Positions 26,601-29,600 of a stretch of DNA of 64,000 nt are shown here, in pieces (positions within the stretch are counted from its first letter, which is position 1; each line of letters starts with the position of its first letter). Position numbers and translations under genes: made by a program. The notes beneath the pieces were generated by a model. That model did no database searches and was not told the DNA's origin. It was given only the letters and a program-made list of their open reading frames with translations. This stretch comes from Scatophagus argus (lineage: Eukaryota; Chordata; Actinopteri; Scatophagidae), in contig NC_058508.1 of NCBI RefSeq assembly GCF_020382885.2, forward strand, positions 5,758,055 to 5,822,054, read 5' to 3'.

Positions 26601-29600
26601 TTGGCAACATGAACTTCAAAAAGGAGCGCCACACAGATCAGGCCTCCATGCCTGACAACACCGGTAAATCAGATTTTTAACATGAACATTGGCGATGTCC
26701 TGCTGCATAATAACCATTTTGCACAATAGTCAGTATTGCGGAGACCCTTCACAAGTAGCTGTTGATCCTGCAATTATATTTTAAGTCTAGCATTTTCTGT
26801 CTTATCCTCCCTTTCATTGTCAATGCCACCATTACTATACTGCTCACTTTCTTCCTCCTGTCTCCGTTGCTGCAGCGGCCCAGAAGGTGAGCCACCTTAT
26901 GGGCATGAACGTTACAGACTTCACCAGGGCCATCCTGTCACCCAGGATCAAGGTGGGCAGAGACTATGTTCAGAAGGCCCAGACCCAGGAGCAAGCAGAG
27001 TTTGCTGTGGAGGCCCTGGCCAAGGCCACATATGAGAGGATGTTCCGCTGGCTCGTCATGAGGATCAATAAGGCTCTGGACAAGACCAAGAGACAGGGAG
27101 CCTCCTTCATCGGCATCCTGGATATCGCTGGCTTTGAGATCTTTGAGGTAAATGAGTGAGGCACACTGTATGTAATTTGACAATGTAGTAATATAATCGA
27201 CCTGTACATGTAAGTGTGTATTGAACCCTACAAAGTCTTATCCATGTTTTTATTTGTGCTGTTGATCAGCAGTGTTAAAATTTGTCTCTTGTATCCCCTA
27301 GCTGAACTCATTTGAGCAGCTGTGTATCAACTACACCAATGAGAAACTGCAGCAGCTCTTCAACCACACCATGTTCATCCTGGAGCAGGAAGAGTACCAG
27401 AGGGAGGGCATCGAGTGGAGCTTCATCGACTTCGGCTTGGACCTGCAGCCCTGCATCGACCTCATTGAGAAACCTGTGAGTTTGAAAATCTTACTCATTT
27501 GTTAAAGTTTCATTTCCTATAGTATTTCCTATCTGTTATTGCTATTTTTGTACTTGAACATGTTATTCCACTACTTAAGGGCCTTTCAATTTCATGCCAT
27601 ACTCTTCCCTTCTGTGTGCAGGCCAGTCCCCCCGGTATCCTCGCTCTGCTGGATGAGGAGTGCTGGTTCCCAAAAGCCACAGACAAGAGCTTTGTGGAGA
27701 AGGTTCTCCAGGAGCAGGGCACACACCCCAAGTTCTTCAAGCCCAAAAAACTAAAGGATGAGGCAGACTTTTGTATCATCCATTATGCTGGCAAGGTAAA
27801 TATGCAGAGGTCACTGTTATCCTTAGGCATTTTTAGGTGTAGTTTCTTATAAAATTGTATCTGTTTTAGAAAGGTATTTGTCTGGTTCTCAATTTTATAA
27901 TAATGCCCCAAAGGTATGCTAGTCTAAGAGAGTAACTTAACAATTCCTACCTAATGTTACTCGTCAGGTGGACTACAAGGCAGATGAGTGGCTGATGAAG
28001 AACATGGACCCCTTGAATGACAACGTGGCTACACTGCTCAACCAGTCCACAGACAAGTTTGTCTCTGAGCTCTGGAAGGATGGTGAGTTGAGGCAGATAT
28101 TGTTAACCCAGGAATCGCTGCTTCTCTGGTGAGATGCTTGATGTGAGAATATATTTCATGTCGACTCTCCTGTTTTGCATTTCATAGTGCTTTCTTTCTC
28201 TTTTACTGTCTGGTGTGTGGACCTTTGTTTTTACCTTCTCAAATCCCACTTGTTGTTCTCATCCATTTCTTCCTCTGTATGGCCCTATTGTTGTCTGTCA
28301 TTTTCTTTTGTACTGGGTCTCAGAGGTGCAGAATTGTCAGAGAGCCTATTTTTATCAGCGTTTTCCTATTCTACACTCTGACTCAGGTGACTGGGCTTCT
28401 TTTTCTTCATTTAGTCTTTCCCTTTCACTCCTGCTCCCTGTTTAAACAGGCTTATTTCCACCGTGAATCCTTTCTGCTGTCCATCCGTTTCTCCTAAATG
28501 TTCAAACTTGTGTTTTGGGTTGAGCCTTTCCAAAGATTAAGGCTTTGTTACTGATCTCTATCTTCAACCAGCTGCGTATACAGTAATAAAATCTTCTGGT
28601 CATCTTACCACTTTATACTCTGCCATTGAACTCTCCTTTTCTCCCTCTGTGTAATAGTGTTGTTTGGGGACCCCTGGTGTTGGTCATGGGTACTGCAGAA
28701 ATTGGTATATACTGCATGGGTTTGGTTTGTTTTATTTATTTATTTATTTTTATATCACCACAGAAATACATGCCCACTGCAACTGCCAATGTTTGTCACC
28801 TTCCAGACACCCACAAATATTTAATTGAACCATCACACATAGTTTCCACTCGGACAACTGCAAACTGGCAATGTTGACCAGCCCCCTTCCACTCACTGCA
28901 CTGAATTTTATTGTATTTTTATTTTTTTGTTTGTTATGGTGTGTAATCTCTCCACGCTTCACTGGCTTTTTGTGACTCCACTCTGTCATCCTACTCTTGA
29001 TTCCTGTTTCTTTCCGCATTCACGTGGTATTTGTGTGGTCTTTCACTGGTCCTGGTAATTTGAACTGCCTCTACTCTCTCCTGGTCTGTCTTCACCCAGA
29101 GGAAGTGGAGAGACAATGGTCATATTCATTCTTCCTTGTGACATGCGTTTGGTTTTTCGTTTGCCTGGTTTGAATAATTCAAATTATAAAGTTGAAACCT
29201 ATTGGCTTCTTAACACCTGACATCTGTCTTCCCTCTTTTTCTCTCCATTGTCTCCTCTTTCAGTGGACCGCATTGTGGGTCTGGATAAGGTGTCTGGCAT
29301 GTCTGAGATGCCCGGTGCCTTTAAGACCCGCAAGGGCATGTTCCGCACTGTGGGCCAGCTGTACAAGGAGCAGCTGTCCAAACTGATGGCCACTTTGAGG
29401 AACACAAACCCCAACTTTGTTCGCTGCATCATCCCCAACCATGAGAAAAAGGTATTGGAGAAATTCTTTGAGTGTGTTTCTACCACAGGAACTTTCCCAG
29501 GGAACCAAGATACTTTTGAGGAACTGAGAAACTAGATCTGGGTTTGGACTGAAGGAACTAGGGGTTAAATGTAGTTCCTGTCTGATAGTTCAAGTGTAAA

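Follow-up and report, generated by a model that had tools for sequence, protein, structure and literature searches.

Can the nonmuscle myosin IIA gene of a fish lengthen loop 2 of its motor domain by taking in a cassette exon, and, if so, to which of the loop-2 exons described in mammals does that cassette correspond? The question is raised by a window of 64,000 nt from Scatophagus argus (NC_058508.1, positions 5,758,055 to 5,822,054, forward strand), in which the original prediction had recognized a B2-type cassette exon within a MYH9-type gene, on the premise that no such exon is known in mammalian MYH9. That premise does not hold, since exon A2, a 21-residue loop-2 insert giving rise to the isoform NM IIA2, is described in mouse and human MYH9 in the accessible text of PMC10480317, and its control is treated in that of PMC13158602. 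From the comparisons presented below, we assign the segment, with a probability of about 85%, to the A2 cassette exon of MYH9, conserved from mammals to S. argus.

A loop-2 cassette with intact borders and frame

The segment as such was confirmed on rereading; its 63 nt are open in phase 1/1, have AG/GT borders and fall between ELWKD and V, as had been proposed (Table 1). The frame is kept both ways, i.e., skipping yields ELWKD-V and inclusion yields 21 residues more. The exon reads gggtctcAG, then AGGTGCAGAATTGTC..., then GACTCAG, then GTGACT..., and it starts at the second base of its first codon, GAG. It is housed in a loop-2 intron of about 1184 nt (28083-29263), for which an independent junction scan chose 28082/29264 as the flanking splice pair, in phase 1. 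The intron offers 33 candidate segments of 30-180 nt that are open and in phase; among them, the cassette ranked second by splice-signal score, level with the first. Because the score was only tied for first place, splice sites alone would not prove a cassette exon, and homology carries the case. The 21-residue peptide found only itself in the 570-Mb genome (E 1.3e-8, among the best candidates scored), and no chain among the solved structures matched it up to E 10.

Table 1. Features of the host gene and its loop-2 region (positions in the window)
Feature	Position	Strand	Remarks
Host gene, MYH9 orthologue by score, complete-looking class II myosin heavy chain	about 20700..38262	+	approximate coding span
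Upstream exon	27968..28082	+	3' end is one base of a split codon (GAT G, then GTGAGT)
Left intron	28083..28323	+	241 nt; 3' end with pyrimidine-rich tract and AG
A2-type loop-2 cassette exon (probable)	28324..28386	+	63 nt, phase 1/1, 21 residues; 15/21 identical to mouse A2
Donor of the cassette exon	28387..28392	+	weak, GTGACT; hexamer identical to the mouse A2 donor (PMC13158602, accessible text)
Right intron	28387..29263	+	877 nt; one TGCATG at 28713 (chance level)
Downstream exon, loop 2	29264..29451	+	5' border CTTTCAG, then TGGAC

The host gene scores as MYH9

The span of the host gene was taken from the start codon in the first exon to the stop in the tail exon, with some inner junctions approximate. 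Over 808 residues of neck and rod, its exons reached 1180.9 bits with MYH9 (human-type), 1057.8 with MYH11 and 1047.6 with MYH10, which puts MYH9 ahead of the next best by 123 bits and of MYH10 by 133 bits. The last exons, coding for the tail, gave 111.7 bits for MYH9 versus 75.4 for MYH10, a margin of 36. As a control, the same stretch of a myh10 copy that shares the contig with the host gene, at a distance of ~440 kb, scored 1235.5 bits with MYH10 versus 1054.8 with the next best. These scores agree with the predicted placement of a nonmuscle myosin II-type loop-2 cassette in a MYH9 gene and speak against a MYH10 orthologue, the identity of the host that the original prediction had named as its own refutation. 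A synteny test by neighboring genes gave nothing, with a Pfam match in one of 10 long open reading frames (ORFs).

Two further ORFs on the plus strand were noted. One, at 49276-49653, past the myosin gene, has a Ribosomal_S2 match (E 5.9e-12) and represents a gene, exon or copy like ribosomal protein SA. The other, at 58834-60294, is an open frame of 486 residues with no Pfam match at E 0.01.

The cassette matches exon A2 of mammalian MYH9

The cassette peptide is identical to the mouse A2 peptide (PMC10480317, accessible text) at 15 of 21 residues. Placed ungapped in the loop-2 intron, the mouse peptide attained a BLOSUM62 score of 84, against a mean of 13.4 (sd 4.3, maximum 24) in 100 shuffles of the intron, and its best placement in the whole window, across the three plus-strand frames, was the cassette position. 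Each of the myh10 B2-type exons of this genome shares 8/21 residues with the cassette, so that the label B2-type had to be abandoned.

According to the accessible text of PMC10480317 (Das et al. 2023), the mouse A2 exon likewise has 63 nt and a GAG codon at its start, entered at the second base; the isoform occurs in brain and, as mRNA, also in skeletal muscle (~5%). The accessible text of PMC13158602, which dates from 2026, gives its donor as GTGACT and reports that the weakness of this site keeps the exon off outside neurons, that a stronger donor raises inclusion, that RbFox proteins promote inclusion and that the A2 introns contain no UGCAUG. The fish cassette has the same donor hexamer, without the consensus G at +5. 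The sequence CAGGTAAGT has a MaxEnt score of 10.86. This is the very score given for a GTAAGT donor mutant of mouse A2 (PMC13158602, accessible text), from which we infer that the last three bases of the mouse exon would be CAG, as they are in the fish exon.

The donor also bears on how the exon is used. A genuine exon employed otherwise than in mouse, be it constitutively or in a non-neural tissue, is quite unlikely; the skeletal muscle mRNA of mouse would be a precedent for it, but the donor of the upstream exon, GTGAGT, is much nearer consensus than that of the cassette.

The A2 exon itself is already known, from mouse and human MYH9, and the known switch would here be extended to fish. The accessible text of PMC10480317 and PMC13158602 makes no mention that we could find of a fish A2 exon; a 10-species alignment figure of the latter, with species unnamed, may include fish. 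Within that same text, we have not seen in print that mouse and this fish share the donor or that, of two myh9 copies, one keeps A2; the supplementary alignments of PMC13158602 may include fish.

Relatives in the same genome and the origin of the cassette

Loop-2 introns were compared for the best 7 of 33 genomic myosin matches, the window gene included and the 26 weaker ones left aside; three of the seven hold a clear cassette, one a probable cassette and three none. A second myh9 copy on contig C2, near 12.318 Mb, scores 749.3 bits with MYH9 versus 690.6 with the next best and is 82.0% identical to the window gene over 1581 aligned residues. A second myh10 copy on the same contig, near 12.209 Mb, is 87.0% identical over 1471 residues to the myh10 linked to the window gene on contig C16. 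Two more genes score as MYH11 (102 residues each). With myh9, myh10 and myh11 each present twice, the set would fit a teleost genome. We also observed that myh9 and myh10 are neighbors on both duplicated contigs (5.79 and 6.23 Mb on C16, 12.21 and 12.32 Mb on C2), with the same orientation on C16 and opposite orientations on C2.

Both myh10 copies carry phase-matched 63-nt B2-type exons, DIQTFQRASFYDNVSGLHEAP and EIQTIQRASFYDNVSSLDEPA, at the same loop-2 place and with GTGAAT donors. These two exons are alike at 15/21 residues. A gene on contig C9 scores 732.8 bits with MYH10, 721.1 with MYH9 and 654.9 with MYH14, and could not be assigned to myh14, MYH14 being the lowest of the three. Its candidate cassette exon, DIQTLPRVYFFDSYATLQANG..., is a probable counterpart with ambiguous borders; mouse A2 scores 29 in its loop-2 intron, below the shuffle maximum of 32. 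No loop-2 cassette was found in either myh11-like gene.

In the 876-nt loop-2 intron of the second myh9 copy, no A2 trace was detected by peptide (score 11, shuffle mean 11.8) or by DNA (16 versus 17.9). Because this copy is without the exon, A2 is, on the present comparison, not indispensable to every myh9 gene. The same loss, along with the weak donor of the window exon, would also be compatible with a relic, i.e., an ancestral A2 exon that fish have ceased to splice. Frame, length and both borders are nevertheless intact, and the identity with mouse at 15 positions has persisted. Since fourfold sites of the two myh9 copies agree at just 229/449, an unused exon should have drifted. Moreover, the identical weak donor in mouse belongs to an exon that is used (PMC13158602, accessible text). 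We thus consider a relic unlikely and retain the reading of an A2 cassette exon.

The original prediction left two origins open, a cassette older than the MYH9/MYH10 split or an exchange between paralogues. Recent gene conversion or exchange with the linked myh10 would draw on the proximity of the two genes (~440 kb apart on one contig) and on a further pair of exons in the window gene that look converted or are unusually alike. The cassette, however, sides with mouse A2 (15/21 residues) rather than with either fish B2-type exon, and its DNA scores 29 against the linked myh10 exon, equal to the maximum of 100 shuffles, and 19 against the other, under the shuffle mean (maximum 29). Such a recent gain is extremely improbable, and the outright classification of the window exon as the B2 exon of MYH10 was discarded in view of the 133-bit lead of MYH9 for the host and the 8/21 match of the peptide to each myh10 exon. 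An older exchange, predating the fish/mammal split, is possible. Because the myh10 B2-type exons at the same place are only 8/21 alike to the window exon, a common ancestral cassette is favored over recent exchange, and the simplest history suggested by these sequences is one cassette before the MYH9/MYH10 split, followed by loss in one fish myh9 copy. We further propose, tentatively and at somewhat short of even odds, that the A2 insert and its weak GTGACT donor have been held by selection since before the fish/tetrapod split and that, once the fish genome had duplicated, only one of the two myh9 genes kept them, which would leave fish with a myosin IIA gene open to being switched off in neurons and a second one that is not.

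Other exons of the myosin genes

The rod exon at 35084-35293 has a DNA identity of 93% with the linked myh10 (22/25 fourfold sites) and of 83% with the gene's own duplicate on contig C2 (14/20); mean fourfold agreement over the exons compared was 194/376 with the linked myh10 and 229/449 with the myh9 duplicate. This exon looks like a case of gene conversion between myh9 and myh10. The relay-region exon at 27302-27475 is 98% identical to the linked myh10 (13/14 fourfold sites) and ~90-92% identical to the two myh11-like genes, which suggests strong silent-site conservation, either through constraint or through conversion.

The loop-1 introns of the myh10 copies encode PDSPKAFKLQ (C16, near 6.2 Mb; raw score 30) and PESPKPVKLQ (C2, near 12.2 Mb; raw score 46), which we take to resemble the B1 loop-1 insert of mammals closely. 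The best raw scores of a B1-like loop-1 peptide in the two myh9 copies were 13 and 15, and fish myh9 thus seems to be without a loop-1 cassette, as reported in mouse.

Proposed function and control

As stated in the accessible text of PMC10480317, mouse NM IIA2 has a very low actin-activated ATPase, no motility and little response to light-chain phosphorylation, and its authors suspect that the extra loop-2 residues interfere with actin-activated phosphate release; the isoform still forms filaments, tethers actin and slows NM IIA in mixtures. Against this report, the altered actin affinity and phosphorylation response that had been predicted for a loop-2 variant were a milder version of the effect, with ATPase very low and motility nil in mouse.

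By analogy with mouse, the weak GTGACT donor would cause the splicing machinery of most tissues to skip the fish exon, whose inclusion would be raised by RbFox and similar neuronal factors. Inclusion would make loop 2, an actin-binding surface, longer by 21 residues, which, as in mouse, might nearly abolish actin-activated ATPase and motility and leave filament formation and actin tethering in place. A small share of inserted heads could then act as a brake on the filaments they join. The fish exon is thus likely to be seldom included and neural, its product being a myosin IIA that holds actin and hardly moves it.

The RbFox motif TGCATG occurs once in the loop-2 intron of the window gene (0.44 expected, P 0.36) and four times in that of the C16 myh10 (1.33 expected, P 0.05). 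With one TGCATG, at 28713, versus no UGCAUG in the mouse A2 introns as described in the accessible text of PMC13158602, control of the exon in fish may differ in detail from that in mouse.

If these assignments are true, exon A2 would be an old vertebrate device rather than a mammalian curiosity, and its weak donor would be no less conserved than its protein. If one myh9 gene is indeed switchable and the other is not, the exon could be removed with the other copy untouched, and a fish with two such genes would offer a clean test of a motor-dead myosin IIA in brain.

Comparison with exons C2, B2 and A2

Three mammalian systems frame the cassette. Exon C2 of MYH14 (NM IIC2) is also a loop-2 insertion at the same junction; its length in mammals is 33 residues (99 nt), as given in the accessible text of PMC10480317 and PMC13158602. 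Exon B2 of MYH10 (NM IIB2) has the same 63 nt, junction and phase, and the B2-type exons of this genome share with the window exon the pattern [DE]-x-Q-x-x-Q-R-A-x-F-Y. In these features, i.e., position, phase, length and protein pattern, the predicted relationship to the B2 exon is sustained, and the kinship of A2 and B2 would rest on them, the DNA being no closer than shuffles. The window exon differs from B2 in its host gene, in matching only 8/21 residues and in its donor, which is GTGAAT in the B2-type exons here. The closest system is exon A2 of mammalian MYH9, with six of 21 residues differing in mouse and with the same 63 nt, 21 residues, junction, phase 1, first codon GAG and donor GTGACT (hexamer compared), as far as the accessible text of both papers describes it. 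In both species, a short left intron is followed by a longer right one, of 241 and 877 nt in S. argus versus ~314 and ~1392 nt in mouse, the latter summed from the deletion sizes in the accessible text of PMC13158602.
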